Source: Archangium violaceum
GTDB lineage: Bacteria > Myxococcota > Myxococcia > Myxococcales > Myxococcaceae
Direction of reading: 5' to 3'
Length of the DNA stretch: 64,000 nt
Assembly: GCF_016887565.1 (NCBI RefSeq)
Contig: NZ_CP069396.1
Location: forward strand, 7,794,001-7,858,000
Position numbers and translations under genes: made by a program. The notes under the pieces are model-generated. The model was not told where the DNA came from. It was given only the letters and a program-made list of their open reading frames with translations, and searched no databases. Of this stretch, positions 5,282 to 47,328 are shown in pieces (position 1 is the first letter of the stretch; the number at the start of each line of letters is the position of its first letter).

Positions 5282-5288
5282 GCCCCGC

Positions 5289-6272
5289 TCAGAAGCGGAG
5301 CACGTGGGCCATGGCCGTGAAGCCCGCGCCCATGCCCAGCATCAGCATGCGGTCTCCCCGCTGAAGCCTCCCCTCCTCCATCAGCTCCGCCAGGCAGATG
5401 GGAATCGACGCCGACGAGGTGTTCCCGTACCGGTCGGCGTTGACGGGGTGCTGCTCGGGGGAGAACCCCAGCTCCTTGCGGATCACCTCCAGCATGTCCA
5501 TCTGCGGCTGGTGGGAGATCAACCAGCGCACGTCCTGGATGCCGACACCGGCCTCGGCGAGCGCGCGGTGACACACCTCGATGGGGAGCCGCAGGAACGC
5601 GCTCACGATGCCCCGCTCGTTGGCGTAGAGGATCTTCCCCGGGGGAATGTGAGGGAACTCCGGCATCGGCTCATAGTTGGAGCGGAACACGCTGCGGCAC
5701 TGCTCGGGCATCGTGGCCCGCCCCGTGCCCTCCACGCCCGGCTCCTCGCTCCGCTCCAGCAGCACCGCGCCCGCGCCGTCCCCGAGGATGGCGGCGAACT
5801 TGTGATGCTGACCGTCCGCTCCGAGGTACACGTGCCGGGACTGGACCTCGCTCGACACGATGAGCACCCGCCTGGCGGCACCGCCGCGCAGGTACTGATT
5901 GGCCAGGTCGAGCGCCAGGACGAACCCCGTGCAGGCAATGGCGATATCGAAGGCCACCCCGGGCTTCAGCCCGGCCATGTGGGCGAGGTTGAGGGCGCCT
6001 CCACTCACCTCGCAGGTGGACGACGTCATGATGACCACGTCGATGGAGTCCGGGGCCACGGACGTCTTCTGGAGGAGTTGGCGGATCGCCGCGGCCCCCA
6101 GGGTCAGCGTCGTCTCCTCGGGACCGGCGAACCGCCGCTCGCGGATGCCGGTGGTGCTGCGCTCGAACCACTCCAGCGGGAAGGGAAAGCCGTGGGACTC
6201 CACGAGGTCACGGTTGGTGACGACCTTCTCGGGCAGGTGCCGGGTGGCGGCGATGATGCGCGTATGAGGCAT
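5289..6272 (-). CDS. 3-oxoacyl-ACP synthase III (FabH/KAS III-like)
   Basis: 327 residues, the usual length for KAS III. The thiolase-fold triad is visible: Cys in IACTGF (about residue 112), His in ISHQPQ and Asn in RYGNTSSASIP. Such enzymes condense an acyl-CoA with malonyl-ACP or, in specialised metabolism, transfer or condense acyl groups. The start at 6272 is supported by GGAG six bases upstream. It lies 20 bases downstream of the P450 gene on the same strand, so the two are probably co-transcribed. No fab genes or ACP lie next to it, which argues for a special rather than housekeeping role; this is inference. Confidence 0.88.
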   Translation of the reverse strand: MPHTRIIAATRHLPEKVVTNRDLVESHGFPFPLEWFERSTTGIRERRFAGPEETTLTLGAAAIRQLLQKTSVAPDSIDVVIMTSSTCEVSGGALNLAHMAGLKPGVAFDIAIACTGFVLALDLANQYLRGGAARRVLIVSSEVQSRHVYLGADGQHHKFAAILGDGAGAVLLERSEEPGVEGTGRATMPEQCRSVFRSNYEPMPEFPHIPPGKILYANERGIVSAFLRLPIEVCHRALAEAGVGIQDVRWLISHQPQMDMLEVIRKELGFSPEQHPVNADRYGNTSSASIPICLAELMEEGRLQRGDRMLMLGMGAGFTAMAHVLRF

Positions 6273-6292
6273 GTCGGACTCCGTTCCTCGTC

Positions 6293-7531
6293 TCAGCGGA
6301 AGCGCACCTGGAGCGACTTCAAGGAGCGCACGGACAGGTTCTCGTGCCACTGGGGGGGCCCATCGCTCTCCAGGCGCAGCTCGGACACCCGGCGGCACAG
6401 CTCGCCGAAGACGATCGACGCCTCCAGGTGGGCCAGCGTCGAGCCCGGGCACGTGTGGATCCAATGGCCGAACGCGATGTGCTGGGTGCTGTCGCGGGTG
6501 ATGTCGAAGCGATCCGGGTCGGAGAAGATCGCCGGATCCCGGTTGGCCGCCGAGGACATGAAGAAGATCAGGTCGTTCTTGCGGATGGTGCGGCCACGCA
6601 GGACCAGATCGCCGAGCGCCATCCGCGACAGCCGCTGCACCGGAGCCTCGTAACGGAGGATCTCATCGACGGCACCGCGCATCAGCGAGGGCTTGCCTTG
6701 CAGCAGGGCGAACTGCTCCGGGTGCTTCGCGAGCAGCAGGATGCCATTGCCCAGCAGGTTGCACGTGGTCTCGAAGCCGGCGAAGACCATCAGGATGCAG
6801 GTGGCGATGATCTCGTCGTCCTCGAGCGCCTCCCCCGCCCGCCGGGCGGCGATCAGGCCACTGATCAGATCCTGGCGAGGCTCCCGCTCGCGCTCCCGGA
6901 TGAGGTCGCGCAGGAGCTCGGCGGTCTCCAGGACGCTGCGCATGGCCACGTCGGCGGTGGGGAGATAGGTGGCGGGCGGAGTGCCGAAGAAGTTGACGAT
7001 GTCGATGGCACAGCGCTTGAGCAACCCGATGCTCTCGCGCGGCGCGCCGATGATCTCCGCGATGACGTAGAGCGGCAGCGGCAGGGCCAGATCGGCCATG
7101 ACCTCCATCCCGCCCCGGGTGACGGCCGCGTCCACCAGCTCGCGGGCGATGCGCTCGATCATCGGCCGGAACCCCATGATGATGGGGCGGGTCATCGCCT
7201 TGGTGATGAGCGCGCGGAACCGGTTGTGGTCCGGCCGATCCAGCATGAGCGCCCACATCGAGAGCAGTCGGGTCAACGGCTGGAACTTGGGCCGGTGCTG
7301 CTCCGGGAACTGCAACAGGCGCGGGCTGATGCGATCGGCGGAGATGGAGGAATGGGCCAGGCCCGTGAGCACATCGTCATGGCGGGTGATCACCCAGGCC
7401 CGGATCTGCTCGCTGAAGTGGACCGGCTCCTGCGCACGCAGCCGGTGCAGCACGGGATACGGATCCTGCCGGAAGTCGGGTGACAGGAGGTCGTACTCAT
7501 ACTCGGGCGACCAGCGCTTCAGCGGCAGCAT
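6293..7531 (-). CDS. Cytochrome P450
   Basis: 412-residue soluble bacterial P450. I-helix motif AGFETT, K-helix ExxR in EILRYEAP, and the Cys-ligand loop FGHWIHTCPGSTLAH. The loop departs from the usual FGxGxHxCxG: the second glycine is Trp, while the His, the heme Cys and the following Gly are kept. GGAAGGG 7 bases before ATG 7531 supports this start over an upstream in-frame ATG at 7582. It needs an external ferredoxin and reductase, neither of which is nearby. Co-oriented with the KAS III-like gene, it may oxidise the product of that enzyme. Confidence 0.9.
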   Translation of the reverse strand: MLPLKRWSPEYEYDLLSPDFRQDPYPVLHRLRAQEPVHFSEQIRAWVITRHDDVLTGLAHSSISADRISPRLLQFPEQHRPKFQPLTRLLSMWALMLDRPDHNRFRALITKAMTRPIIMGFRPMIERIARELVDAAVTRGGMEVMADLALPLPLYVIAEIIGAPRESIGLLKRCAIDIVNFFGTPPATYLPTADVAMRSVLETAELLRDLIREREREPRQDLISGLIAARRAGEALEDDEIIATCILMVFAGFETTCNLLGNGILLLAKHPEQFALLQGKPSLMRGAVDEILRYEAPVQRLSRMALGDLVLRGRTIRKNDLIFFMSSAANRDPAIFSDPDRFDITRDSTQHIAFGHWIHTCPGSTLAHLEASIVFGELCRRVSELRLESDGPPQWHENLSVRSLKSLQVRFR

Positions 7532-7860
7532 GGGAGTCCCTTCCGGCTTGCGGCCAACTCCGTTCGAGAGGAGGAAAACCATTTTAACCGGAAGGATTTT
7601 TCTTTCTGAGAGGTCAGGGATTTCATGACCCAGCTCCTCATGCTCTGTCTACTTCATAACGTGATGACTCGAACGCAGAGGTTGAAAAATTCCAGTGAGA
7701 CAGGCAACCCAGGTCCGTAAGTCCCCCTCATCTAGAAGACCCTGACGGAGCGGCTCCGGGCACTCAGCCCCTCCGCGCTCCTGGGCCTCGGACATGAAAA
7801 CCCGAAAAATCCGGCATCTGGCTCTTTCCGCACACCGGAACTCCACAAGGAGAAGAGTCG
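7532..7860. other. Intergenic control region between P450 and CBM3/GH16-like genes
   Basis: About 330 bases between divergent genes. It contains a stretch poorer in G+C than its surroundings (about 7575-7690, with runs such as GGATTTTTCTTTC) that probably holds promoters for both sides. An AAGGAG ribosome-binding site for the plus-strand gene is at its right end. I see no credible gene in it. Confidence 0.5.
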
Positions 7861-12313: not shown

Positions 12314-14026
12314 ATGACGCATCGTCGTTTCATGAACGAGGGAGCGGGTGTGTTCGCCGCGCTCATGCTGGCGGGCTGTGGTTCGGCCTCATCCGATACC
12401 GGGAGCGTGGTCCGTGAGGGAGCCGCGGAGCCGACCGCCACCGTCACCGCGCCCGTGGCGGTGAGCAAGACTTTCACCAAGAAGATCTACGTCCACCTCA
12501 TGCCCTGGTTCGAGAGCAATACCTCCTCGGGCAATGGCTCCTGGGGTGTCCACTGGACCATGGCCAACAAGAACCCCAACGTGGTCGACTCCACGGGCAG
12601 GAGGCAGATCGCTTCCTACTACTACCCGTTGATCGGGCCCTACGCGTCGGGCGACCAGGACGTGATCGAGTACCAGCTGCTGCTCATGAAGTACGCGGGC
12701 GTGGATGGCGTGCTCATCGACTGGCCCGGCACGCTCAATTGCGTGGACTACCCCAAGAACAAGCAGAACGCCGAGGCCCTCATCAACAAGACGGCCGCGG
12801 TGGGTCTGGATTTCGCCATCGTCTACGAGGACCACAACCTGACGCTGGCGCCCACCTACGGCTGCTCCGTTCCCGACAAGTACGCCGCGGCCCGCAATGA
12901 CATGATCTACATGCGGGACAACTACTTCTCCCGTGGCAACTACATCAAGATCAACAACGCCCCCCTGCTGCTGGACTTCGGTCCGCAGACGTTCAAGTCA
13001 CCGAGCGATTGGAGCAACATCTTCTCGCCGCTGTCGACCAAACCGACCTTCCTGACGCTCTGGTACCAGAACGGGGATGCGGGCGCCAACGCGCAGGGCG
13101 AGTACCCGTGGATCTACTCGGACTTCACGACCGGATTGCAGAACTTCTACAACAACCGTCCGCTGAACGTGAAGTTCGGCGTGGCCTACCCTGGCTTCAA
13201 CACCTTCTACACGGCGGGTGGATGGGGCGGCCCGACCTGGGGCCTGCCCTACAATGGGACCGGCACCTTTGGCCAGACGCTGGACATGGCCAAGAACAGC
13301 GGCGTGAACTGGATCCAGCTCGCCACCTGGAACGACTACGGCGAAGGCACGATGCTCGAGCCGACGCGCGAGTTCGGTTATGGCTTCCTGACCACCCTGC
13401 AGCAGAAGCTCGGCGTGCCCTATGGGCAGAGCCAGCTGGAGCTCATCGCCAAATTCCATGAGCAGCGCAAGCAGTACGCGGGCAACGCGTCCAAGCAGGC
13501 TCAGCTCAACGAAGCCTTCAACTACTTCGTGGCCCTGCAGCCGGACAAGGCGGCGACCATTCTCGGAGGAGGCACCACGCCGCCGCCCAATCCCACGGTC
13601 ACCAACGCGGGATTCGAGTCCGGCATGACGGGTTGGAACACCTGGTCACCCAATGGCACCGCCGGGGCCGCGTTCACCGAGACCTATAACGGGGGCTACA
13701 ACAGCACCTATCACCTGACGCACTACAGCCCGGGGGCCTTCGAGACGTGGACCTACCAGCAGGCCTACAACATCCCCAACGGCAACTACCGGGTGCGCGC
13801 CTGGGTCCGCAAGGGAGGGGACTTCGGCTTCTCCCGGCTCCAGGCCAAGACGTGCGCCGAGTGCACTCCGGCGGCCACGAACCTCGGCACGTACAGTGCC
13901 TGGACTCAACTGGAGACGCCGACCATCTCCGTGACCGGGAACTACCTGGAGTTCGGCCTCCACACCCAGGCCACGAGCGGCAGCAGCTTCGTCCACCTGG
14001 ACGACGTGCAGCTCATCCGCCAGTAG
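12314..14026 (+). CDS. Lipoprotein glycoside hydrolase, GH71/GH99-like, with C-terminal carbohydrate-binding domain
   Basis: 570 residues. Lipobox LMLAGC gives lipidated Cys22. The catalytic region (about 55-385) resembles the GH71/GH99-like fold: KKIYVHLMPWFE at the first strand, GVDGVLIDWPG near 129-139, VYEDHN near 170, and the characteristic ATWNDYGEGTMLEPT near 337-351. GH71 enzymes are alpha-1,3-glucanases and GH99 enzymes endo-mannosidases; the choice cannot be made here. After a Pro-rich linker (about 418-427) a jelly-roll domain (about 428-570, starting TNAGFESG and ending VHLDDVQL) looks like a CBM4/9-type carbohydrate-binding module. AAGGAG is well placed before ATG 12314. Confidence 0.82.
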   Translation: MTHRRFMNEGAGVFAALMLAGCGSASSDTGSVVREGAAEPTATVTAPVAVSKTFTKKIYVHLMPWFESNTSSGNGSWGVHWTMANKNPNVVDSTGRRQIASYYYPLIGPYASGDQDVIEYQLLLMKYAGVDGVLIDWPGTLNCVDYPKNKQNAEALINKTAAVGLDFAIVYEDHNLTLAPTYGCSVPDKYAAARNDMIYMRDNYFSRGNYIKINNAPLLLDFGPQTFKSPSDWSNIFSPLSTKPTFLTLWYQNGDAGANAQGEYPWIYSDFTTGLQNFYNNRPLNVKFGVAYPGFNTFYTAGGWGGPTWGLPYNGTGTFGQTLDMAKNSGVNWIQLATWNDYGEGTMLEPTREFGYGFLTTLQQKLGVPYGQSQLELIAKFHEQRKQYAGNASKQAQLNEAFNYFVALQPDKAATILGGGTTPPPNPTVTNAGFESGMTGWNTWSPNGTAGAAFTETYNGGYNSTYHLTHYSPGAFETWTYQQAYNIPNGNYRVRAWVRKGGDFGFSRLQAKTCAECTPAATNLGTYSAWTQLETPTISVTGNYLEFGLHTQATSGSSFVHLDDVQLIRQ

Positions 14027-35550: not shown

Positions 35551-35661
35551 GCTCCAGGCCTGGCGACCGGGCGGCCCTCAGCCGGATGTGGATGAAAAAC
35601 GCGGTTGGACCCGTTCCCTCGCGTCCCTCACACGCGCACGAGTCCCTCCGCTTTTCATTCC

Positions 35662-37107
35662 ATGTCGCAGCCCTCCACACCCGAACTCCTCACGCCCGCC
35701 GCCTCCCCTTCCATCGAAGAGGGCAAGGGCTGGCTCCCCGTGCTGTGGGATGCCCTGCGCGGCGCCAGGCATGACCTCACCGCCGGCTCCGTGGATCGCG
35801 CCTTCCTGCTGCTCTCGGTGCCCATGGTGCTGGAGATGGTGATGGAGTCCATCTTCGCCCTGGTGGACGTCTTCTTCGTCTCGCGGCTGGGCGCGGAGGC
35901 CGTGGCCACCGTCGGCATGACGGAGTCCATGCTCACCTTCGTCCAGACGCTGCCCATGGGCCTGTCCATCGGCGCCACGGCCCTGGTGGCCCGGCGCATC
36001 GGGGAGAAGGATCCGGAGCGCGCGGCGAGCGCGGCCATGCAGTCCCTGTGGCTCGGACTGTTGCTGGCGCTGCCCGTGGCGGTGGGAGGCATCCTGTTCG
36101 CGCGCCCGCTGCTCTCGGCCCTGGGCGCCTCGCCCTGGGTGGTGGAGCACGGCGCTTCCTACACACGGGTGATGTTGGGCAGCACCCTCGTCCTCACCCT
36201 GCTGTTCCTCATCAGCGCCATCCTCCGCGGCGCCGGGGACGCGGCCACCTCCATGCGCGCGCTGTGGCTGGCCAACGGCCTCAACATCGTGCTCGCCCCC
36301 GGCCTCATCTTCGGCCTGGGCCCCCTGCCCGAGCTGGGCGTGCTCGGCGCGGCGGTGGCCACCACCTTCGGGCGCTCCGTGGGCGTGCTCTACCAGCTCC
36401 ACGGGCTGATGCGCGGCAGTGGCCGGCTCGTCATCCGGCGCCGCCACCTGCGGCTGGAGCCCGCTACCCTGCTCGCCTTGCTGCGGCTGTCGGGCAGCGC
36501 CCTCGTCCAGTCCCTGCTGATCATGTCCAGCTGGCTGGTGCTGATGCGCCTCGTCTCCAGCTTCGGCAGCGCGGCGATGGCCGGCTACACCATCGCCATG
36601 CGCATCCTCCTCTTCGCCCAGCAGCCCTCGTGGGGCATGAGCCACGCCGCGGGCACCCTGGTGGGCCAGAGTCTGGGGGCCAGGGATCCGGAGCGGGCCG
36701 AGCGGGCGGCCTGGCGGGCCAGCTTCCACACGCTGCTCCTGCTTGGTGCGATGGCGCTCGGCTTCCTGGTGTTCGCCGAGCCCCTCGTGCGAGCCTTCAC
36801 CTCGGAGGCCGAGGTGGTCCTGCATGCCACGCGCTGCCTGCGAATCGTGAGCTGCAGCATGGTCTTCTACGCCTTTGGGACGGTTCTCCCGCATGCCTTC
36901 AATGGCGCGGGGGATACCACCACGCCCACCGTCATCAACCTGCTCTGCTCCTGGATGCTGCAACTGCCCCTGGCGTACCTGCTCTCCAGGACCATGGGGC
37001 TCGGCCCCTCCGGCGTGTTCCTGGCCATCGCCCTCGGCTATTGCGCGCTCGGCACGCTGAGCGCCGTCTTCTTCCGGCGCGGACGGTGGAAGGCTCGCAT
37101 CCTCTAG
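35662..37107 (+). CDS. MATE-family efflux transporter
   Basis: 481 residues with about 12 hydrophobic segments; the two MatE halves are visible (SVPMVLEMVMESIFALVDVFFVSRLG near 50-75 and the second half from about 265 with SGSALVQSLLIMSSWLVL). MATE proteins export drugs or metabolites in exchange for Na+ or H+. It contains the typical GAGDTTTPT loop near 414-422. ATG 35662 (MSQPST) is chosen over an upstream TTG at 35605 that lacks a ribosome-binding site. A strong terminator follows. It precedes the inositol/YcaO operon but is separated from it by that terminator. Confidence 0.9.
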   Translation: MSQPSTPELLTPAASPSIEEGKGWLPVLWDALRGARHDLTAGSVDRAFLLLSVPMVLEMVMESIFALVDVFFVSRLGAEAVATVGMTESMLTFVQTLPMGLSIGATALVARRIGEKDPERAASAAMQSLWLGLLLALPVAVGGILFARPLLSALGASPWVVEHGASYTRVMLGSTLVLTLLFLISAILRGAGDAATSMRALWLANGLNIVLAPGLIFGLGPLPELGVLGAAVATTFGRSVGVLYQLHGLMRGSGRLVIRRRHLRLEPATLLALLRLSGSALVQSLLIMSSWLVLMRLVSSFGSAAMAGYTIAMRILLFAQQPSWGMSHAAGTLVGQSLGARDPERAERAAWRASFHTLLLLGAMALGFLVFAEPLVRAFTSEAEVVLHATRCLRIVSCSMVFYAFGTVLPHAFNGAGDTTTPTVINLLCSWMLQLPLAYLLSRTMGLGPSGVFLAIALGYCALGTLSAVFFRRGRWKARIL

Positions 37108-37132
37108 CCCATCCAATCCCTCTCAACTCCCG

Positions 37133-37172
37133 GAGCCCGGCGCGAAACATGTTCGCGCCGGGCTCTTTTTTT
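37133..37172 (+). terminator. Strong intrinsic terminator
   Basis: A perfect 14-bp stem (37133-37146 with 37152-37165), a 5-base loop and a run of seven T. It ends the MATE gene and isolates the operon that follows. Confidence 0.92.
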
Positions 37173-37383
37173 CATCCGCGGACGCATGACCTGCCCTTCG
37201 GGACATTCAGGTTTCCCCGACTTGAAGGACTTCTGTCCCGTGATGACTCATTACGTGGGCTCGTGAGGGACCCGCTTCGGAATCATCCGACGAGCACGTC
37301 CCCCACCTCGAAACGAGGAGCCTCGGTTCCTCCGGGGGAGCACGAGCCCGACACGTGGTGAAACTCAAGGGGAGTTGTCTGAC

Positions 37384-38604
37384 ATGTACGGGGATCGTCT
37401 GGGGATCGCGGTCGTGGGGATGGGTGGGGCCGTGGCGACCACCGCCATCGCGGGGATGGAGCTGCTCAAGCGGGGCGTGGTGGACACCACGGGCCTGCCG
37501 CTGGCCGGGGTGAAGGGCGCGGGCCTGGTGGACTACGGGGCACTCACCTTCGGGGGCTGGGATTTGTACGATGATGATCTGGCCAAGGCGGCGCGCACTC
37601 ATGGCGTGCTGACCGAGAGCCAGCTCCAGGCAGTGGAACCCGTGCTGTCGAAGATGCGCCCCTGGCCCGCGGTGTCCAACAGGAACTTCTGTCGCAACGT
37701 GGTGGGCTCATCCAACAAGAAGATGAGCAGCCTGCGCGCCCAGGTGGAGGCCATCCACCAGGATCTGGAGCGCTTCCAACGCGAGCAGCAGGTGGATCGG
37801 CTGGTGATGATCAACTGCGCCTCGACCGAGCGTCCGGTGAACACGGCCCTGCCCCAGTTCGCCACGCCAGAGGCCTTCGAGGCGGCGATCGACGCGAATG
37901 ACCCGGAGATCAGCCCGGCCATGCTCTACGCCTACGCCGCCATCTCGCGAGGCCTCCCCTTCGCCAACTTCACGCCGAGCGTCGCCGCGGACGTGCCGGC
38001 GCTCCTGGAGCTCGCCCGGCGCAACGGCGCGCCCGTGGCGGGCAAGGATGGAAAGACGGGCCAGACGCTGCTCAAGACGGTGCTCGCCCCGGCCTTGAGG
38101 GATCGCGCGCTGTACGTGTCCGGCTGGTACTCCACCAACATCCTGGGCAACCGCGACGGCGAGGCCCTCAACGACCCGGCCTCGAAGGCCTCGAAGCTCG
38201 ACACCAAGGGTGCCGTGCTGGACAGCATCCTCGGCTACAAGGTCCAGGATCACATCGTTCAAATCCAGTACTACCGGCCGCGCGGCGACAACAAGGAGGC
38301 CTGGGACAACATCGATGTCCTCGGCTTCCTCGGCCAGCCCATGCAGCTCAAGGTCAACTTCCTGTGCAAGGACTCCATCCTGGCCGCGCCGCTGGTGGTG
38401 GAGCTGGCGCGCACGCTGGACCTGGCCAAACGGCGCGGCGAGGGCGGAGTCATCGAGTCCCTGGGCTGCTTCTTCAAGGCGCCCATGACGCCGGACGGCC
38501 GCACGCCCGAGCACGCCATGCCCGAGCAGCAGCGGCGCCTCATGAAGTGGCTGTCCGCCGGGAGTGCGCGGCCCACCGTCGGCAACGAGCTCCTGCGGGG
38601 TTAG
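37384..38604 (+). CDS. ino1: Inositol-3-phosphate synthase (MIPS)
   Basis: 406 residues. The enzyme isomerises glucose 6-phosphate to 1D-myo-inositol 3-phosphate with NAD. Rossmann motif VVGMGGAVATT near 10-20, the long middle insertion, YSTNILGNRDGEAL near 249-262, KVNFLCKDSILAAPLVVELA and GCFFKAPM follow, all family hallmarks. It is the first gene of a dense operon (next gene starts 4 bases later). AAGGGGAG is nine bases upstream of ATG 37384. With a GT4 and a PIG-L protein downstream it probably supplies an inositol scaffold to the pathway rather than phospholipids; that is inference. Confidence 0.9.
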   Translation: MYGDRLGIAVVGMGGAVATTAIAGMELLKRGVVDTTGLPLAGVKGAGLVDYGALTFGGWDLYDDDLAKAARTHGVLTESQLQAVEPVLSKMRPWPAVSNRNFCRNVVGSSNKKMSSLRAQVEAIHQDLERFQREQQVDRLVMINCASTERPVNTALPQFATPEAFEAAIDANDPEISPAMLYAYAAISRGLPFANFTPSVAADVPALLELARRNGAPVAGKDGKTGQTLLKTVLAPALRDRALYVSGWYSTNILGNRDGEALNDPASKASKLDTKGAVLDSILGYKVQDHIVQIQYYRPRGDNKEAWDNIDVLGFLGQPMQLKVNFLCKDSILAAPLVVELARTLDLAKRRGEGGVIESLGCFFKAPMTPDGRTPEHAMPEQQRRLMKWLSAGSARPTVGNELLRG

Positions 38605-38607
38605 CCC

Positions 38608-39540
38608 ATGACCGCCTCCGTCTCGGACACGGCCCCGGTCCCGGACCGCCTGGCCACGCTGCGCCCGCTGCTGGGGGAGCTGATGGACCTCAAGCGGGTC
38701 CGCACCGCCGACCACCTGGAGGGTCTGGCGGCACGAGGGTTCCGGCGGGCCTGGGCGGCGCTCGTCGCGGGCGTGGAGCCGGAGGCGCTGGCGCTGCGCG
38801 AGACGGCGCTCGCCCTGGTCTCGGTGCGGCTCGGAGGCATCGACGCCGAGGTGCTGCACCGGGCCGGCCTGCCACCTCCCCGCGCGTTGGAGCTCCTCCA
38901 CCGCGCGCTGGATGCGGCCGCCGGTCCCCTGGAACCGGGCCTCCGGGAGCGGCTGCACGCCGCGCTCGCGGAGCCGCTCGGCACCGAGGGCACCGCACCC
39001 CCTCCCTTCGTGGAGCGGCTGGTGCGCCAGCCACGCGCCGGGGCCACGCTCCCCGGCCGTCCCCGCATCCTCCTGGAGCCCGCGGAGAGCCACGCGGACC
39101 ACTGCTACGCCGTCGCCATCGCGGCGGTGCTCGTGGCTCCCCTCTTCGGTGCCCGCCCCGCCCTGCCCTTCGTGGCCGGGTTGAGCCACCACCTCTTCAA
39201 CGTGGTGCTGCCGGACGCGGGCTACGCCGGAGACGTGCTGCTGGGTGATGCGGTGGGACCCATGGTGGAGCGGCTCACCGAGGAGGTGCTGGCCACGCTG
39301 CCAACAGGACCGGTCGATCGCATCCGGGAGGCCCGGCGCGTGCTGCCACGCACCGACACGCCGGAGGCCCGCGCCTTCCACGCCGCCGACGTGCTGGACC
39401 GGGTGTTGGAGATGGACTTCCACGCCCGCGCCGCCGGCTTCACCCTCCGCCATGCGTTGGAGGACCTGGAGCTGGTCCACGACGGGCCCATGCAGTCCTA
39501 CGAGAACGCGGTGCTGGTCGCGGCGGGCATCCAGCCCTGA
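38608..39540 (+). CDS. HD-like protein of the inositol/YcaO operon
   Basis: 310 residues. The N-terminal half is helical and Ala/Leu-rich without motifs. The C-terminal half carries a His/Asp pattern like an HD phosphohydrolase: SHADHC (H162, H165), GLSHHLFN (H194, H195) and FHAADVLDR (H258, D261). The usual HD pair is HH here, so metal binding and catalysis are not certain. Dephosphorylation of inositol phosphate would fit next to MIPS; an oxygenase role like MIOX, also an HD fold, cannot be excluded. The start is 4 bases after the MIPS stop, so it is co-transcribed. Confidence 0.6.
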   Translation: MTASVSDTAPVPDRLATLRPLLGELMDLKRVRTADHLEGLAARGFRRAWAALVAGVEPEALALRETALALVSVRLGGIDAEVLHRAGLPPPRALELLHRALDAAAGPLEPGLRERLHAALAEPLGTEGTAPPPFVERLVRQPRAGATLPGRPRILLEPAESHADHCYAVAIAAVLVAPLFGARPALPFVAGLSHHLFNVVLPDAGYAGDVLLGDAVGPMVERLTEEVLATLPTGPVDRIREARRVLPRTDTPEARAFHAADVLDRVLEMDFHARAAGFTLRHALEDLELVHDGPMQSYENAVLVAAGIQP

Positions 39541-39582
39541 GCGCGGCCCTCCGCGGGCAATGAATCTTCGAGAGGTGTGCTC

Positions 39583-40620
39583 ATGGAACGTTCGTTCCAG
39601 CGCTCACGGCGGCTCGGATGGGCCATCGTGGGCTGTGGCTGGGTGGCCCGGGACTATGTGGCCCCCGCCCTGTTGCAGGCGGGCAATGCCCGGCTGGTGG
39701 CCCTGTGCGATCCGGATTCCGAGTCGCTGGCGCGCATGCCCGGTGATGGAGCGGTCCGGTACACGCGGTTGGACGACGTGCTGGCCCACCCGGAGGTGGA
39801 GGCCGTCTACGTGGCCACGCCCAACCACGTGCATGCGCCGGTGACGGTCGCCTGCGCCGCGGCCGGCAGGCATGTGCTGTGCGAGAAGCCCATGGCCATC
39901 CGCCCCGAGGAGGGCGCCCGCATGGTGGAGGCGTGCCGGCGCGCGGGCCTCCAGTACGCCACCGCCTTCGACCAGCGCCACCACGCCGCCCACCGGAAGC
40001 TGCGCACCCTGGTGCGCGAGGGCGTGCTCGGCACCGTCACCCAGGCGCGCATCCACTACGCCTGCTGGCTGCCTCGCGACTGGGCGCCGCGCAACTGGCG
40101 CATCGATCCGCACCAGGCGGGGGGCGGCGCGATGATCGACCTGGCGCCTCATGGAATCGATCTGCTGGAGGTGCTGCTGGAGGACGAGTGGACGTCCCTC
40201 ACCGCCCTGATGCAGCGGCGCGTCCACGACTACCCGGTGGATGACGGCGCCATCCTCATGGGCAGGTTCCGCAGCGGCACCCTGGGCGTGCTCCAGGTGG
40301 CCTACAACTGCCCTGACAACTACCCGCGCCGCACCCTGGAGCTGATCGGCACCCGGGCCCGCGCGCTGGCCCGCAACACGATGGGCCAGACTCCTGGCGG
40401 CACACTGACGCTCACGGATGCGGCCACCGGCGTGGAGACCGTGGTGCCCATCTCCCCGGAGGAGGACCGGAGCCCCTTCCTCCACCAGGTGGAGGCCTTC
40501 TCCGCCTGCGTGCTGGAGGGCCGCCCCTCCCCCTTCGCGCCCGAGCGGGACGTGCGCCTGCTCACCCTGCTGAGCCAGGCGTGCGAGCCCCGCTCCTGGG
40601 AGGACGCGCCATGCCGTTGA
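39583..40620 (+). CDS. Gfo/Idh/MocA-family oxidoreductase
   Basis: 345 residues. N-terminal NAD(P)-binding Rossmann motif AIVGCGWVA near 14-22, the family mark CEKPMAI near 102-108 (the EKP lysine binds substrate and cofactor), and DLAPHGIDLL near 185-195 with the catalytic His. The family includes inositol 2-dehydrogenase (IolG) and scyllo-inositol and sugar dehydrogenases. Next to MIPS and an IolE-like protein, oxidation of an inositol hydroxyl to a keto-inositol is plausible. GAGAGG precedes ATG 39583 by seven bases. The stop overlaps the next start by 10 bases. Confidence 0.85.
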   Translation: MERSFQRSRRLGWAIVGCGWVARDYVAPALLQAGNARLVALCDPDSESLARMPGDGAVRYTRLDDVLAHPEVEAVYVATPNHVHAPVTVACAAAGRHVLCEKPMAIRPEEGARMVEACRRAGLQYATAFDQRHHAAHRKLRTLVREGVLGTVTQARIHYACWLPRDWAPRNWRIDPHQAGGGAMIDLAPHGIDLLEVLLEDEWTSLTALMQRRVHDYPVDDGAILMGRFRSGTLGVLQVAYNCPDNYPRRTLELIGTRARALARNTMGQTPGGTLTLTDAATGVETVVPISPEEDRSPFLHQVEAFSACVLEGRPSPFAPERDVRLLTLLSQACEPRSWEDAPCR

Positions 40621-41444
40621 GCCGCTATGCCTGCTGCAACTGCGGCTCCTGGCAGCCGTGGTTCGTCCACGAGCGCCCTCCGCACTGCCCCATCTGCATG
40701 GACGTGCGCAACGCCCTGCCCCGGGACGGCTGGGAGTTCCGCTCCGCCGCCCAGGTGTCGGAATCGTTGGAGACCTCCTGGTACGAGGCGCTGCCAGGAG
40801 TGCTCGGCTTCCACTGCACCCCGAGCTTCGGACTGGGCGGCACCGGCTGGCTGCTGCGGCGGCCCGAGGGCAACGTGGCCTTCGAGGGCGCCCCCTGGTA
40901 CTCGCGGCGGGCGCTGGAGCACCTCGCCTCGCTGGGGGGCATCCAGGTGCTGTCCGCCTCGCACCCGCACGGCTTCGGCGCGCTGTGGCAGTTGCAGGAG
41001 CGGTTCGATCCGCTGCTCGTGCTCCACCGCGACGCGGTGCCCTACACCAAGGCCTTCCAGGTGCGCTGGCCCGTGGACGACGAGCACGAGCTGGCCCCCG
41101 GGCTCACGCTGCACTGCGTGGGCGGACACTACGAGGGCCAGTGCGTGCTGTACGACGCGCGCACGCGCTCGCTCTTCTGCGGAGACGTCCTCAAGGTGGA
41201 GCTGGACGCCCGGGGCCGGCCCGCGGCGCTCTCGAGTCACAAGGGCTTCCACGCCGCCATCCCCCTGAGCCACGGCGAGCTGCGCCGCTACCGGGCGGTG
41301 CTCGAGCGGCTTCCCTTCGAGAACGTCTTCACCCCCTTCGAGTCCGCCCGCGGCGTCACCCGCGCCCACGCGCTGGCGCTGTTCGATCGATTGCTCGCCG
41401 GAATGCCGCATACCCGGCCCATTTCCATGGAGGAACTGACATGA
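40611..41444 (+). CDS. Zinc-ribbon plus metallo-beta-lactamase-fold protein
   Basis: 277 residues. The first 30 residues hold CCNC (C8, C9, C11) and CPIC (C26, C29), a rubredoxin- or zinc-ribbon-like site. The rest fits an MBL-fold hydrolase, but the first metal motif is altered: HPHGFG (H118, H120) instead of HxHxDH, while GGHYEG (H173), LFCGD (D192) and KGFH (H214) look kept. So one metal site is likely lost or changed. Role unknown; possibly a hydrolase, lyase or sulfur/oxygen chemistry partner of the YcaO protein. Overlaps both neighbours (10 and 4 bases). Confidence 0.72.
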   Translation: MPLSRYACCNCGSWQPWFVHERPPHCPICMDVRNALPRDGWEFRSAAQVSESLETSWYEALPGVLGFHCTPSFGLGGTGWLLRRPEGNVAFEGAPWYSRRALEHLASLGGIQVLSASHPHGFGALWQLQERFDPLLVLHRDAVPYTKAFQVRWPVDDEHELAPGLTLHCVGGHYEGQCVLYDARTRSLFCGDVLKVELDARGRPAALSSHKGFHAAIPLSHGELRRYRAVLERLPFENVFTPFESARGVTRAHALALFDRLLAGMPHTRPISMEELT

Positions 41445-42916
41445 GCCTGAGAGCCGCACGAGACGCCTATGCCCGGGCCATGCCGCCCGGAGAGCTGCTG
41501 TTGTTCCGGGACGATGCCATCGATCGCGTCGGCATCCCGGTGGTGGCCTCCAGCCTGCGCATGGTGGGTGGGCCGTGGATCACCTCCCACGGTTACGGCG
41601 CCACCGAGGAGGAGGGCATGGTCAGCGCCATCGGCGAGCTGGCCGAGGAGGTCTTCGCCGAGCGGGCCATGACCACCCTCCCCCGCTTCCACGGCAGCTA
41701 CACCGAGATGGTGCGCGCGCGCGGAAGGTCCGGTGTCGCGGATCCGCTCACGCTGAGCCTGCCGGCCGGCAGCCCCTATCACCCGGACATGCTGCTCACC
41801 TGGGTGGAGATGCGGCGGCTGTCCACCGGCGAGCCCGTGCTCGTACCGGAAGAGTACGTCGCCATCCATCCCAGCCAGCTCCACGGCCGCTCGCCGCTCA
41901 TCCTCCCCATCACCAACGGCCAGGGCGCGGGGCTCACCCGCCATCAGGCCCTGGCGCACGCCCTGCTGGAGCTGCTCCAGCGCGATGGCAATGGCCTGTG
42001 CTTCCGCGCCATGGATCAGGGCGTCGTGCTCGACCTGGAGGGGGCGAAGCTGTCTCCCGACGTCCAGGCCCTGCTGGAGCGCTACCGCCAGCTCGGCATC
42101 GAGGTGATTCCCAAGCTGGCCACCACCGAGTTCGGCCTGGTGAACCTGTACGTGGTGGCGAGGGACCCCGACGTGGGCGATCAGCCCCTGATGGTGACGG
42201 CCTGCGGCGAGGCGGCCGATCCGGATCGGGAACGGGCCCTGCGCAAGGCCTTGCTGGAGTACGCCGGCTCGCGAGCACGCAAGGCCTTCATGCACGGGCC
42301 GCTGGAGCACGTGGCCCGCGTCGCCCCACCCGGCTACCTGGAGCGGTTCCTCCCCCAGGTGAACGTGGACCGGGAGGAGGAACGGGCCCTGTACGGCATG
42401 GTGGAGTGGGCCCGCATGTCCGCGGACGCGCTGCGCGCGCTGACGGCCCGCACGGTCGCGTGCAACCGCAAGGTGCGCTTCACCGACCTCCCCCGCGTCC
42501 AGGTCTCCGAGGAGCCGGCGATCCGCTGCCAGCTGGTGGTGGATCAACTGCGCTCCGCCGGCTTCGACATCCTCGTGGCCGACATGTCTCCGCCGGACCA
42601 CTCCATCCACGTGGTCAAGGTGCTCGTGCCGGGACTCGAGGTGGAGACGATGACCTACTCCCGCATCGGTGAGCGGAACGTGGCCCGGCTGCTCGCACAC
42701 GAGGAGCCCCTGGTCGGGCTCGGCACACCGCCGGAGGGTGCCCGGCCCGTGCGCCTGACGCCCGCCGCCGAGGAGCGGCTGGGAGGACCGGCCTGGTTCA
42801 ACGTCCGCCTGGCCGAGCAGCGCGTGGGCCGCCTCTACTCGCTCTACCGCGAGCCGGGCCGCCACAGCGTGCAGCAGGTGCTGCGCGGCCGTCGTTTCGG
42901 AGGAGGTCTGTCATGA
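41441..42916 (+). CDS. YcaO-domain protein
   Basis: 491 residues. YcaO proteins use ATP to activate amide carbonyls, giving azolines, thioamides, amidines or macrocycles. Seen: the first ATP/Mg motif GATEEEGMVSAIGELAEE (53-70), typical A-x-x-E-A-x-x-S-A-x-x-E spacing, and NGQGAGLTRHQALAHALLELLQRD (159-182) with the Glu/Arg/Asp set. It is a stand-alone YcaO without a fused E1-like domain, and no precursor-peptide gene lies in the operon: all genes overlap or are a few bases apart. It may therefore work on a small-molecule substrate. GGAGG is 8 bases before the ATG, which overlaps the previous stop (ATGA). Confidence 0.82.
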   Translation: MSLRAARDAYARAMPPGELLLFRDDAIDRVGIPVVASSLRMVGGPWITSHGYGATEEEGMVSAIGELAEEVFAERAMTTLPRFHGSYTEMVRARGRSGVADPLTLSLPAGSPYHPDMLLTWVEMRRLSTGEPVLVPEEYVAIHPSQLHGRSPLILPITNGQGAGLTRHQALAHALLELLQRDGNGLCFRAMDQGVVLDLEGAKLSPDVQALLERYRQLGIEVIPKLATTEFGLVNLYVVARDPDVGDQPLMVTACGEAADPDRERALRKALLEYAGSRARKAFMHGPLEHVARVAPPGYLERFLPQVNVDREEERALYGMVEWARMSADALRALTARTVACNRKVRFTDLPRVQVSEEPAIRCQLVVDQLRSAGFDILVADMSPPDHSIHVVKVLVPGLEVETMTYSRIGERNVARLLAHEEPLVGLGTPPEGARPVRLTPAAEERLGGPAWFNVRLAEQRVGRLYSLYREPGRHSVQQVLRGRRFGGGLS

Positions 42917-43779
42917 GCCTGCGTTTCGCCTACAACACCAACGGCGTCGCCAACCACCGCTTCCAGGACGCGCTGCGGCTCATCGCCGACAGCGGCTACG
43001 ACGGCGTCGCCCTCACGCTGGATCATCACCACTTCGATCCCTTCGCCCCCCGGCTGGGGCACCGCTCCGAGATGCTGGCGGGCCTGCTAGAGCGGCTCGG
43101 CCTGGGACTGGTGGTGGAGACGGGCGCGCGCTTCCTGCTGGAGCCACGGGCCAAGCACGAGCCCACGCTGATCAGCCCGGAGCCCGAGGGCCGCGAGCGG
43201 CGGCTCGACTTCCTCCGGAGGGCGGTGGACATCTGCGCCACCTGCCGGGGCGAGGCGGTGTCCTTCTGGGCCGGAGTGCCCCGGCCCGGTGTGGACACGG
43301 AGGCGGCCTGGGGCTGGCTCGTGGACGGCGTGGCCCGGCTGTCCGACTACGCGGCGTCGCGCGGCGTGGTGGCCGCGGTGGAGCCGGAGCCGGGCATGCG
43401 GGTGGAGACGGTGGACGAGTGGCGCCGCCTCCAGGAGGAGGTGGCACGGCTCGGCGCGGCCCCCATCCGGCTGGCGCTGGACGTGGGACACCTGCTGGTG
43501 ACGCAGGAGCGGGTGCCCGCGGACGCGGTGCGCGAGCTGGCGCCGGTGCTGGGCACGGTGGCGCTGGAGGACATGAAGCGCGGCGTGCACGAGCACCTGC
43601 CCTTCGGCGAGGGGGACCTGGACGTGTCCTCGGTGCTCCGGGCCCTGGTGGAGATCCGCTTCGACCGGCTGGTGTGCGTCGAGTTGTCGCGCGACTCGCA
43701 CCGCGCGCACAGCATGGTTCCCCAGGCTCGCGAGTGGTTGCGCGCCCACATGCCCTCGGGCGCGGAGGTGGCGGCATGA
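42913..43779 (+). CDS. Sugar phosphate isomerase/epimerase-like TIM barrel (IolE/xylose-isomerase family)
   Basis: 288 residues of the AP-endonuclease-2/xylose-isomerase-like family. The metal ligands at the C-terminal ends of strands are recognisable: E157 in AVEPEPG, D190 and H193 in LALDVGHL, H226/H228 with LPFGEGDLD, and E257 in VCVELSR. Family members include inosose dehydratase IolE and isomerase IolI. After MIPS and a MocA-type dehydrogenase, isomerisation or dehydration of a keto-inositol is a reasonable hypothesis. ATGA overlap with the YcaO gene and with the glycosyltransferase shows tight coupling. Confidence 0.83.
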   Translation: MSLRFAYNTNGVANHRFQDALRLIADSGYDGVALTLDHHHFDPFAPRLGHRSEMLAGLLERLGLGLVVETGARFLLEPRAKHEPTLISPEPEGRERRLDFLRRAVDICATCRGEAVSFWAGVPRPGVDTEAAWGWLVDGVARLSDYAASRGVVAAVEPEPGMRVETVDEWRRLQEEVARLGAAPIRLALDVGHLLVTQERVPADAVRELAPVLGTVALEDMKRGVHEHLPFGEGDLDVSSVLRALVEIRFDRLVCVELSRDSHRAHSMVPQAREWLRAHMPSGAEVAA

Positions 43780-45062
43780 GCGGCAAGAACTCGCTGCGGG
43801 TCTGCTTCATCTCCCGGCGCTTCTTCCCGGCCATCTCGGGCATGAGCGTCTACGCCCTCAACCTGGTGCGGGAGCTGGCGGACCGTGGTCACGACGTGAC
43901 GATGGTCAGCCAGTACCGCAATGACCGGGCGGGGGTCTCGGTGTACGGCGGCGGGCCTCCGCCCCCCGTGCCCGGTGTCACGGTGCTGGGCCGCGAGTCC
44001 CTGGGCGAGCAGCGCGTCGGCGACGGCCTGCCGGCCAGCTTCGAGCAGGACGTCGAGGACATGGTGGCGACCGTGGAGCGCGAGCACCGCCGGAAGCCCT
44101 TCGATCTCATCCACGCGCAGTATGGCTACCCATGCGGGCTGGCCGCGCTGGAGGCGAGCCGACGGCTCGGGCTGCCCAACGTGGTGTCCATCCAGGGCGG
44201 TGACGGCCACTGGGTGGGCACCTGCTGCGGGACACACAAGCAGGCCATGCTGGCGGTGCTGGGCCACGCCGGGGCGCTGCTGATCGGCAGCCGCTCCTTC
44301 GCCGAGGAGGTGCGGGGCCACCACGGGACACCCCTGGAGCGCTTCACCCTCGTGCCCGGCGCCACCGACACGCGCCGCTTCCACCCGCGTGACGAGCCCT
44401 CACTGGGCGCGATGCGGAATCCGCCGGTGCTGCTCTACCACGGCCGCGTGGACGCGCGGAAAGGCGTGATGGAGCTGCTGGACGCGATGCGGATGCTGAC
44501 GCGCAACGGCCGCGAGCTGAAGCTGGTGGTGTCCGGCATCGGCCCGGACCTGAACGCCGTGCGCAACCGGGTGACGGAGCTGGGTCTGGGTGACCGCATC
44601 GAGCTCACCGGCCATGCCTCCTACGAGGACGCGCCCGCCGTGTACCGGCGTGGAGACCTGTTCATCTCGCCCACGTACTCGGAGGGCTTCTCCAACACGA
44701 TCCTCGAGGCCATGGCCACCGGCCTGCCCATCGTCTCCACTCGGGCGGTGGGCGTGGTGGACTGCCTGGAGGACGGCCGAAACGCACTGCTGGTCCCTCC
44801 CCGGGACGCCCGCGCCCTGGCCGATGCCATCGCCCGGATGCTGGACGATCCGGAGCTGCGCCGCCGCCTCGCGCGCACGGCCCTCGCCGAGGTGCGGGAG
44901 CTGTACTCGTGGCAGGCGGTGGGCCGGCGCATCCAGCAGGTCTACGGCCAGCTCACCGGCACCGGTCCGGACACGGGCTGGACACACCTGTACGACCCGG
45001 CCACCACCGTGGACACCGCCGATCCCTCCTGCCGCTTCCGGAGCGCACCGCACCTGCTATGA
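43776..45062 (+). CDS. GT4-family glycosyltransferase
   Basis: 428 residues, two-Rossmann GT-B fold. N-terminal acceptor domain begins LRVCFISRRFFPAISGM; the C-terminal donor domain contains LLYHGRVDARKGVMELLDAM, and the GT4 E-x7-E motif EGFSNTILEAMA near 303-314, followed by GLPIVSTRAVG. The group includes MshA (UDP-GlcNAc plus inositol phosphate) and BshA (UDP-GlcNAc plus malate). With MIPS upstream and a PIG-L deacetylase immediately downstream, transfer of GlcNAc to an inositol-derived acceptor is the best guess; donor and acceptor are not proven. Confidence 0.87.
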   Translation: MSGKNSLRVCFISRRFFPAISGMSVYALNLVRELADRGHDVTMVSQYRNDRAGVSVYGGGPPPPVPGVTVLGRESLGEQRVGDGLPASFEQDVEDMVATVEREHRRKPFDLIHAQYGYPCGLAALEASRRLGLPNVVSIQGGDGHWVGTCCGTHKQAMLAVLGHAGALLIGSRSFAEEVRGHHGTPLERFTLVPGATDTRRFHPRDEPSLGAMRNPPVLLYHGRVDARKGVMELLDAMRMLTRNGRELKLVVSGIGPDLNAVRNRVTELGLGDRIELTGHASYEDAPAVYRRGDLFISPTYSEGFSNTILEAMATGLPIVSTRAVGVVDCLEDGRNALLVPPRDARALADAIARMLDDPELRRRLARTALAEVRELYSWQAVGRRIQQVYGQLTGTGPDTGWTHLYDPATTVDTADPSCRFRSAPHLL

Positions 45063-45856
45063 GCACCGCCCTCTTCCTCTCACCCCACCTGGACGACGTC
45101 GCCTTCTCCTGCGGTGGCACCCTGGCCCGGTTGAAGGCTCGAGGGTGGACGGTGGCCCTCGTCACCGTCTTCACCCGCTCGATGCCGCACCCGTCGGGCT
45201 TCGCGCTCGCCTGTCAGACGGACAAGGGCCTCCGGCCCGAGGTGGACTACATGGCGATGCGCCGCGAGGAGGATCGCGACTTCGCGGAGCTGATGGAGGT
45301 GGATGTACTGGTGTGGACCAACCTGCCGGAGGCACCGCACCGCGGCTATGACAGCGCGGCGGCCCTCTTCACCCCGCCACGCGAGGACGATCGCATCGGC
45401 GCGGTGGTGGTGGAACGGCTCGCACCGGTGCTGGCCGAGCTGCGACCGGACCTCGTGCTGGCTCCGCAGGCGCTGGGCAGCCATGTGGACCACGTGCAGG
45501 TGGTGCGGCTGATGCCGTCATTGGGAGCGTGGGACTCCCGCACCTTGTGGTACCGCGACACGCCCTACGCCGTGCGCCAGCCCGGAGCCCGGCCCGATCC
45601 AGCGCTGCCCGCGGACCTGCGCCCCCTGGTGGTGGACGTGTCGGCCGAGTTGCCGCGCAAGGTGACCGGATGCACCTGCTACCGGACCCAGGTTGGCTTC
45701 CAGTTCGGTGGAGCCCAGGCCGTGGGCCTCACGCTGACAGCCTTCCACCAGCGCGAGGCGGCGGCCCATGGACGTACCGGCCATGCCGAGGTGTTCCTCG
45801 CGGGAGCCGGTCTCGCTCCGGACCTGCGGGAGGCACTCACGGACGAGCCTCCTTGA
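45059..45856 (+). CDS. PIG-L/LmbE-family N-acetylglucosaminyl deacetylase
   Basis: 265 residues. Zn-binding motif PHLDDVAFSCGG (P9-H10-x-D12-D13) and the distal ligand in GSHVDHVQV (about 140-148). The family comprises MshB, BshB and PIG-L, which remove acetyl from GlcNAc-linked inositol, malate or GPI precursors. The ATG overlaps the glycosyltransferase stop, a common arrangement for GT/deacetylase pairs. It would give a glucosaminyl-cyclitol. It is the last gene of the operon: the next gene has its own promoter. Confidence 0.88.
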   Translation: MSTALFLSPHLDDVAFSCGGTLARLKARGWTVALVTVFTRSMPHPSGFALACQTDKGLRPEVDYMAMRREEDRDFAELMEVDVLVWTNLPEAPHRGYDSAAALFTPPREDDRIGAVVVERLAPVLAELRPDLVLAPQALGSHVDHVQVVRLMPSLGAWDSRTLWYRDTPYAVRQPGARPDPALPADLRPLVVDVSAELPRKVTGCTCYRTQVGFQFGGAQAVGLTLTAFHQREAAAHGRTGHAEVFLAGAGLAPDLREALTDEPP

Positions 45857-45918: not shown

Positions 45919-47328
45919 ATGAGCACTTCGAATGCCCTTCCCTCCACTCGCGCCGGTACACACGCCATCGTCTATGGCGGCAGCATGGCCGGACTGATGA
46001 CCGCGGGCCTGCTGTCCCGCCACTTCGATCGCATCACCCTGGTGGAGCGCGACCGCTTCCAGAACGGGCCGATGCCGCGCAAGGGCGTCCCCCAGGCGCA
46101 GCACGTCCATGGCCTGCTCACACGGGGAATGGACATCCTCGCCGGCATCTTCCCGGGCATCCGGGAGGACATCGAGGCCACTGGAGCCGAGTTCCTGGAC
46201 GTGATCGAGACCACCGCCTCGTTCGGGTCCGGCACCTGGCGCCCACGGTTTCGCAGTGACGTGAAGGCCGCCTCCATGAGCCGGTTGCTGCTCGAGTGGG
46301 TGGTCCGTCAGCGTCTCCAGGCCCTTCCCAACGTGCGCATCCTCGATGGCCGGGAGGCGGTGGGCTTGAAGACGAACGGGGAGCGGACGCACGTCACGGG
46401 ACTCCAGATCCAGGCGCCAGGCGGCGGGCAGGAGGAGACGCTCGAGGCCGAGCTGGTGGTGGACTCCAGCGGCCGTGGCTCGCGCACGCCCCAGTGGCTG
46501 GAGGCGCTGGGTTACCCTCGCGTGGAGGAGACGCGCATCCACGTGGACGTGGGCTACGCCAGCCGCCTCTACCGCCAGCCGCGGGGTTTCGACCCAGGGT
46601 GGCGGAGCCTGGCGATCGCGCCCAGGCTGCCGAAGGAAAGGCGGATCGGCATCATCCAGGAGATCGAAGATGACCGCTGGCTGGCGCTGGTGGGGGGCTG
46701 GCTGGGAGATGCCGTCTCGACGGCGGACGACGCCGCGTTCCTCGAGTTCGCTCGCGGCCTGCCCCAACCGCACCTGTACGAGGCCATCAAGAACGCCGAG
46801 CCGCTCGGACCCATCCACCTCTACCGCTTCTCGCACCACCAGCGCCGCCACTACGAGCGCATGCCCCGCTTCCCCGAGGGGCTCGCGGTGGTGGGGGATG
46901 CCTTCTGCTCGTTCAACCCCATCTACGGCCAGGGCATGAGCACGGGCGCGATGCAGGCCGAGGCGCTGGGCGGGTGTCTGCGCCAGGGCGTGCGCGGGGC
47001 CTCCAATCGCTACCGCCGGCGTGCGGGTGAGATCCTCGCGGGGCCCTGGGCCCTCGCGACGGCTGGCGATCTGGCCTTCCCCGAGGTGGAGGGCAAGCGT
47101 CCGCCGGGGTTCGACTTGATGCGCTGGTACGGCAACCGGTTCCAGCAGCTCGCGGGCTACGACGAGGAGACGATGAAGACCTTCGTGCAGGTGCAGCACA
47201 TGATCGAGTCACCCGCCGCCATGTTCTCCCCTCGCATGGTCCTCAAGGTACTCACCGTCGATCCCGACAAGGCCACCCGGAACCCGGGGCCGCGGCCGCT
47301 CTCCATCTCCACTCAACGGGTGGCCTGA
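45919..47328 (+). CDS. FAD-dependent monooxygenase/oxidoreductase
   Basis: 469 residues. The N-terminal dinucleotide motif AIVYGGSMAGLMTAGLLSRHF starts near 15 (GxGxxG appears as GGSMAG), followed by VERDRF for the ribose. The second FAD motif VVGDAFCSFNPIYGQGMS lies near 320-337 (GD-x(6)-P). It belongs to the group of 2-polyprenyl-6-methoxyphenol-hydroxylase-like and tryptophan-halogenase-like flavoproteins. Whether it hydroxylates or reduces an alkene is not readable. It is separated from the inositol/YcaO operon by 62 bases and has its own promoter, so its link to that pathway is possible but unproven. Confidence 0.85.
   Translation: MSTSNALPSTRAGTHAIVYGGSMAGLMTAGLLSRHFDRITLVERDRFQNGPMPRKGVPQAQHVHGLLTRGMDILAGIFPGIREDIEATGAEFLDVIETTASFGSGTWRPRFRSDVKAASMSRLLLEWVVRQRLQALPNVRILDGREAVGLKTNGERTHVTGLQIQAPGGGQEETLEAELVVDSSGRGSRTPQWLEALGYPRVEETRIHVDVGYASRLYRQPRGFDPGWRSLAIAPRLPKERRIGIIQEIEDDRWLALVGGWLGDAVSTADDAAFLEFARGLPQPHLYEAIKNAEPLGPIHLYRFSHHQRRHYERMPRFPEGLAVVGDAFCSFNPIYGQGMSTGAMQAEALGGCLRQGVRGASNRYRRRAGEILAGPWALATAGDLAFPEVEGKRPPGFDLMRWYGNRFQQLAGYDEETMKTFVQVQHMIESPAAMFSPRMVLKVLTVDPDKATRNPGPRPLSISTQRVA

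Follow-up and report, generated by a model that had tools for sequence, protein, structure and literature searches.

An inositol-phosphate synthase/YcaO operon of Archangium violaceum, conserved in three phyla, is a candidate pathway for a glucosaminyl-cyclitol

Introduction

Mycothiol biosynthesis (MshA/MshB, Ino1) combines the synthesis of an inositol phosphate with a GT4 glycosyltransferase and a PIG-L deacetylase, and a GT4/PIG-L pair is likewise used in bacillithiol biosynthesis (BshA/BshB1/BshC). These elements recur in an operon of eight genes in Archangium violaceum, which is the subject of this work. It occupies positions 37384–45856 on the + strand of a stretch of 64,000 nucleotides from contig NZ_CP069396.1 (hereafter called the window) and encodes, in this order, a myo-inositol-3-phosphate synthase (MIPS), an HD-superfamily protein, a Gfo/Idh/MocA dehydrogenase, a protein with a divergent metallo-β-lactamase (MBL) fold, a YcaO enzyme, a xylose-isomerase-like TIM barrel, a GT4 glycosyltransferase and a PIG-L deacetylase. 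The operon differs from the mycothiol pathway in that its proteins score far under the MshA, MshB and Ino1 cut-offs, no MshC above cut-off accompanies it, and a dehydrogenase, an isomerase and a YcaO enzyme are added. It differs from the bacillithiol pathway by equally sub-cut-off scores and by the presence of a true bsh operon elsewhere in the genome.

Three other systems are comparable in part. The MIPS-type ebo clusters of Streptomyces, Gemmatirosa and Natronococcus, the product of which is still an open question (PMC5133447, PMC6282210), have a MIPS (34–41% identity) and a TIM barrel (31–53% identity) in common with the operon. However, blastp reveals no homologue of EboA, EboB (TatD), EboC (UbiA prenyltransferase), EboE or EboF in the operon, and the ebo stretches read lack YcaO, GT4 and PIG-L. 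The biosynthesis of mycosporine-like amino acids offers an analogy only: a cyclitol is O-methylated and then receives an amine in an ATP-dependent step, but the operon has a MIPS instead of a sedoheptulose cyclase and a YcaO instead of an ATP-grasp ligase. Finally, the YcaO systems that produce ribosomally synthesized and post-translationally modified peptides (RiPPs) or thioamidate McrA share the YcaO domain with its conserved motifs, and the operon YcaO stands alone as MJ1094 does. Yet it scores under their cut-offs, has no TfuA, E1-like or precursor partner and is surrounded by sugar and cyclitol genes. We consider it somewhat better than an even chance (roughly 55%) that the operon makes a specialized, non-peptidic glucosaminyl-cyclitol, either secreted or acting at the cell surface, which YcaO tailors with ATP and without a TfuA, an E1-like partner or a precursor encoded in cis.

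Results

All eight open reading frames (ORFs) are intact and most active-site motifs are kept (Table 1). From gene 1 to gene 8, the junction spacings amount to +3, +36, −10, −4, −4, −4 and −4, with ATGA overlaps at four junctions. Six of the eight proteins have a clear Pfam assignment; that of the MBL protein is borderline, and gene 2 taken alone stays under the HD_3 gathering score. A preliminary description of this stretch had proposed an eight-gene operon of these families with at least three ATGA junctions, and this is borne out; its spacing of 4–42 bases or overlap is roughly right, the measured gaps being the +3 and +36 given above. It had left gene 2, a divergent HD_3 protein, unnamed and had overlooked a syntenic MATE gene.

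The same description had suggested searching for the gene order in other genomes, and the order indeed recurs within the Myxococcaceae and in three genera of two further phyla. In the Myxococcaceae loci read, it is MATE, MIPS, HD, an optional methyltransferase, MocA, MBL, YcaO (one to three copies), TIM barrel, GT4 and PIG-L. Among named records, the carriers are Corallococcus and Myxococcus species, and further Myxococcaceae carry the cluster too. In almost every Myxococcaceae cluster read, the MATE gene immediately precedes the operon, and the genes flanking the cluster vary from genus to genus. Relatives of the YcaO protein (60–94% identity) are present in 31 of the 96 family genomes, which places the cluster in about one third of them. 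MIPS of the cluster type (at least 75% identity) occurs in about 26 family genomes, each time together with the YcaO. Most genomes with this MIPS encode a second one, 45–49% identical, and the genome of the window has the cluster MIPS only. The operon MIPS is a dedicated paralogue, distinct from the 45–49% identical MIPS of most Myxococcaceae. A search of 195 Myxococcota genomes with the MBL gene, at an E-value of 1e-10, gave relatives in the Myxococcaceae only.

Beyond the Myxococcota, plasmid records were sampled. This collection yielded four further clusters, in Roseomonas haemaphysalidis, Methylobacterium bullatum, M. aquaticum and Hymenobacter volaticus, those of the two Methylobacterium species being read from ORF calls made in the present analysis. 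The gene order is the same in all three genera, with proteins that are 43–66% identical. Both Methylobacterium clusters lack the MBL gene; in the Hymenobacter cluster, the methyltransferase is missing, and both the MocA gene and the GT4 match are broken over two frames. The plasmid location of these clusters is a sampling effect and no proof of mobility. The pairwise identity matrices of nine cluster proteins correlate at 0.90–0.99, as expected from co-inheritance, part of this correlation being due to shared host phylogeny. The recurrence of the gene order is far beyond chance. As the same order returns in three phyla, the genes constitute an old, co-inherited pathway, and the earlier view that they form one pathway agrees with their inheritance as a unit. 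The pathway is real and unusual, and it is conserved widely, in Myxococcota, Pseudomonadota and Bacteroidota.

Within the Myxococcaceae, the cluster varies and decays. YcaO is its most rearranged gene and the one that is duplicated, with up to three tandem copies in several strains; the copies fall in separate clades. The methyltransferase is present or absent depending on the strain; its C-terminus reads LP-x-RW. The four g7 genomes that carry the cluster all lack its HD gene and have a second operon of HD, methyltransferase and YcaO genes elsewhere (L033, L035, L099, L100), an apparent complementation of HD in trans. Three g6 genomes hold a remnant (MIPS-YcaO-TIM or HD-YcaO) at the site where a fourth g6 genome carries the full cluster. 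The HD and MBL genes are truncated in genome G056, and MocA-(MBL)-YcaO is the sole remainder in two Corallococcus genomes. Such patchy presence, with decayed or deleted copies, points to a dispensable, diversifying specialized product.

The cyclitol part of the operon starts with the MIPS, for which 7nwr is the best solved relative (294 bits). Equivalents of N255, D261, K274, K278, K306, D332 and K367 are present when it is aligned with the MIPS of A. fulgidus; we take these to be the Asn/Asp/Lys residues that act in catalysis. This alignment supports the earlier assignment of the gene to a true MIPS that would make the inositol scaffold. The TIM barrel keeps E157, D190, H193 and E257 invariant. 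Its description as an IolE-type enzyme proved imprecise, with only 16.8 of the 290 bits demanded by the IolE model. Its nearest relatives outside the cluster are neighbours of MIPS in ebo-type clusters, either adjoining it or with one gene between, at 49–53% identity in Streptomyces, 44–53% in Streptomyces and Gemmatirosa together and 31% in the archaeon Natronococcus. This position beside MIPS ties the TIM barrel to a MIPS product. The pair of MIPS and TIM barrel is seen in ebo clusters of Actinomycetota, Gemmatimonadota and haloarchaea (L073, L074, L075, L091, L092, L093, L094), in records listed as plasmids.

For gene 2, 12 of 12 relatives hit the HD_3 profile (lowest E-value 1.2e-6), with H162, H165, H194, H195, D264 and H272 as invariant residues and a weak match to PDB entry 2cqz. 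EboA was considered as an identity for gene 2, and blastp gave no match. In the MocA protein, CEKP and D-x3-H (D188, H192) are invariant. Its nearest solved structure is a 1,5-anhydrofructose reductase, and it reaches 113.1 of 355 bits against the IolG equivalog, which is under the cut-off.

The GT4 protein keeps the usual motifs of its family, and its C-terminus, CRFR-x-x-PHL(L), is nearly invariant across phyla. PIG-L has an invariant zinc motif (H10-x-D12-D13, H142-x2-H145) and teicoplanin-type deacetylases as nearest relatives. That the two genes mirror MshA/MshB and BshA/BshB, as had been suggested, holds for a glycosylation/deacetylation pair and fails for membership of those families: GT4 scores 95.8 of 462.5 bits against MshA (TIGR03449) and 84.0 of 273.7 against BshA, PIG-L 43.4 of 182.5 against BshB1 and 20.8 of 224.35 against MshB (TIGR03445). 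The structural comparison with MshA and BshA that had been recommended gave both among the top neighbours of the GT4 model (predicted local distance difference test, pLDDT, 62.5), with Z-scores of 26.3 for BshA and 26.1 for MshA. It is not decisive, since sucrose-phosphate synthase (25.8) and HepE (25.6) are tied with them. A complete BshC-BshB1-BshA operon is located at 9.33 Mb in the same genome (9329001–9341000, local 4216–7807, − strand), with 513.9 bits for BshA, 283.2 for BshB1 and 471.3 for BshC, all above the NCBIfam cut-offs. No MshC above cut-off is present in the genome; the best match (298 of 485.1 bits, from a model that behaves alike in most control genomes) is probably a cysteinyl-tRNA synthetase. 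The operon itself contains no ligase.

The nearest solved relative of the YcaO protein is MJ1094, and no TfuA or E1-like partner lies near the gene. Three TfuA genes of the same genome, at 3.50, 3.77 and 12.24 Mb (3499157, 3773849 and 12243247), are distant from the operon at 7.83 Mb and mark probable thioamide RiPP loci. As the operon genes overlap or sit at most 36 bp apart, there is no precursor peptide in cis between them. Across the strains compared, the gap between MATE and MIPS holds no conserved ORF either. In the neighbouring MBL protein, H118, H120, H173 and D192 are invariant, the full HxHxDH motif is not kept and an N-terminal four-cysteine motif (C8, C11, C26, C29) is present. Relatives with 25–29% identity occur on Pantoea/Cronobacter plasmids, with no cluster in the one neighbourhood read. 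The YcaO of Roseomonas, whose cluster contains MBL, resembles the myxobacterial YcaO proteins more than those of Methylobacterium, which lacks MBL, whereas the other Roseomonas cluster proteins are nearer to Methylobacterium. This affinity of the Roseomonas YcaO to the MBL-bearing clusters suggests that YcaO and the MBL protein act jointly. The YcaO tree has an uncertain base owing to long branches.

At its upstream side, the operon most likely starts within 37167–37383, because a strong terminator closes the MATE gene, which probably forms a transcript of its own. A FAD-dependent oxidoreductase gene (45919–47328) follows 62 bp past PIG-L; it is found at that place only in the near relative G004 and probably falls outside the conserved pathway. 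A large lipoprotein-like protein is encoded more than 21 kb from the operon (12332–14026), and its homologue adjoins the cluster in g7 genomes (L031, L032, L034, L036). In both Methylobacterium clusters, PIG-L is directly followed by a UDG-superfamily gene (L070 16376–16942; L071 16552–17181), which in M. aquaticum shares 4 bases with PIG-L. The Roseomonas PIG-L gene is followed by one for an MdoH-like GT2, and two genes of the spore-photoproduct-lyase family are located just past the cluster (L069 17798–19919), near the plasmid repA/repB genes.

Table 1. Genes of the operon and the adjoining MATE gene with its terminator (positions in the window).
Feature	Position	Strand	Assignment
MIPS	37384..38604	+	PF07994/PF01658, 225 and 114 bits
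HD-superfamily protein (gene 2)	38608..39540	+	HD_3 in relatives; candidate phosphatase (or metal oxygenase)
Gfo/Idh/MocA NAD(P)-dependent dehydrogenase	39577..40620	+	GFO_IDH_MocA, 93–102 bits; candidate cyclitol dehydrogenase
MBL-fold protein, divergent, N-terminal Cys4	40611..41444	+	PF00753, 22.7 bits (borderline)
YcaO ATP-dependent enzyme	41441..42916	+	PF02624, 197 bits
Xylose-isomerase-like TIM barrel, sugar-phosphate isomerase type	42913..43779	+	PF01261 (AP_endonuc_2), 129 bits
GT4 glycosyltransferase	43776..45062	+	Glycos_transf_1, 131 bits; probable UDP-sugar/UDP-GlcNAc donor
PIG-L/LmbE-type zinc N-deacetylase	45059..45856	+	PF02585, 66 bits
MATE-family exporter	35605..37107	+	PF01554, 223.8 bits; NCBIfam matE, 273 bits
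Intrinsic terminator of MATE gene	37132..37166	+	15-bp stem, T run; fold about −32 kcal/mol

Discussion

The glucosaminyl-cyclitol logic of the preliminary description survives as the proposed class of product. The dedicated MIPS would cyclise glucose-6-phosphate to myo-inositol-3-phosphate, a step that is well supported by its residues and family, and the HD protein may then take off the phosphate. MocA could oxidise a ring hydroxyl, after which the TIM barrel would isomerise or dehydrate the ketone to a modified, possibly enolic, cyclitol; the gene neighbourhoods seen in several phyla support the link between MIPS and TIM barrel in this step. GT4 would attach N-acetylglucosamine (GlcNAc) and PIG-L would free the amine, in analogy to MshA/B and BshA/B. 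YcaO, together with the MBL protein where present, may use ATP to activate a C=O of the small molecule (an amide or vinylogous acid) for an N, O or S nucleophile. In some strains, O- or N-methylation could follow, and MATE would export the product in Myxococcaceae. As the steps that vary, the number of YcaO copies and the methyltransferase would diversify the product. A narrower version is tentative, and we put the odds somewhat against it: in an ATP-dependent condensation, YcaO would link an amine or a different nucleophile to a carbonyl on the ring derived from inositol, giving a new class of small molecules built by YcaO, possibly UV-absorbing, in at least three phyla.

Several points weigh against the proposal of a YcaO-tailored glucosaminyl-cyclitol. 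The substrates of the enzymes, that of YcaO included, and with them the product, are inferred from family membership, and YcaO enzymes in the literature covered act almost exclusively on peptides. Gene 2 has a His-His instead of an HD dyad in all 12 relatives, and its AlphaFold model from five sequences is poor (pLDDT 46.5), for which reason it was left out of fold claims. The tie of GT4 with sucrose-phosphate synthase and HepE leaves both donor and acceptor unproven. A precursor peptide for YcaO may lie elsewhere in the genome, none being present in the operon or the MATE-MIPS gap and trans-encoded ones not having been searched for. Lastly, export by MATE is not universal, as the stretches read in Roseomonas and Methylobacterium have no MATE gene.

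This last point also bears on the idea of a pseudo-aminoglycoside-type antibiotic or signal that is exported by MATE and carries an amidine, oxazoline or thioamide formed by YcaO on its aminosugar. The combination of aminosugar and cyclitol genes, the exporter and the tailoring that differs between strains would all fit such a molecule, but the conserved set includes neither an aminotransferase nor a recognisable resistance gene, and MATE is confined to the Myxococcaceae among the clusters read. We regard this alternative as unlikely.

Still less likely, though attractive, is a UV absorber. Here, a 1,2- or 1,3-diketone made from inositol by MocA and the TIM barrel would be turned into an enol ether by the methyltransferase, and YcaO would add an amine to give an enaminone or imine chromophore; YcaO would thus stand in for the mycosporine ATP-grasp ligase, the amine would possibly be the glucosamine freed by PIG-L and the product, as yet unproven, would be polar. 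A UVA absorber of Methylobacterium is reportedly highly polar and of unknown structure. The scheme fits the chemistry of each enzyme class, with YcaO in the role of the sole ATP-dependent condensing enzyme, and DNA-repair genes adjoin the cluster in two lineages (UDG-superfamily in Methylobacterium, spore-photoproduct-lyase in Roseomonas). Moreover, phyllosphere Methylobacterium is among the hosts, a genus cited as containing UVA-absorbing compounds (Yoshida 2017, via PMC8561711 and PMC12573535). However, no strain is tied to a measured absorber, the repair-gene neighbours may be chance, soil myxobacteria would not necessarily fit, and the literature search gave no direct support.

A YcaO-modified RiPP or protein modification, with the sugar genes as glycosylation steps, would be in line with the matches of YcaO to the SagD-type (123 bits) and McrA-thioamidation (117 bits) models and with MJ1094 as the nearest structure. 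Both scores are far under cut-off, though, TfuA and E1-like partners are lacking, there is neither space for a precursor in the operon nor a conserved upstream ORF, and the partners are all small-molecule enzymes, which together make this reading very unlikely. Much the same low probability applies to a cell-envelope glycolipid or glycan, in which GT4 and PIG-L would act on membrane-bound inositol or glycan: many members of the GT4 family work on the envelope (PimA, WaaG, PglA) and the Roseomonas cluster is followed by an MdoH-like GT2, yet the conserved set has no lipid transferase, flippase or polymerase, and a glycolipid would not require a route through free inositol that includes a dehydrogenase and an isomerase. 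The thiol-like cofactor of the preliminary description, a redox buffer in which YcaO or an outside ligase joins a GlcN-cyclitol to cysteine or a sulfur donor, parallels MshA/MshB plus inositol phosphate supply and recalls the BshA and MshA neighbours of GT4, but was rejected as highly improbable given the separate full bacillithiol operon, the failed Msh/Bsh cut-offs, the lack of MshC above cut-off and of a ligase in the operon, the patchy, decaying distribution and the adjacent exporter.

Conclusions

No description of this gene set was found in open-access papers, subscription papers lying outside the search. It would represent an undescribed biosynthetic pathway common to Myxococcota, Pseudomonadota and Bacteroidota. 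Should YcaO indeed act on a sugar-cyclitol, the YcaO family would reach further than the peptides and proteins it is known for. As a small, self-contained gene set, the operon also provides a testbed for the product of the MIPS/TIM-barrel pair in ebo-type clusters.

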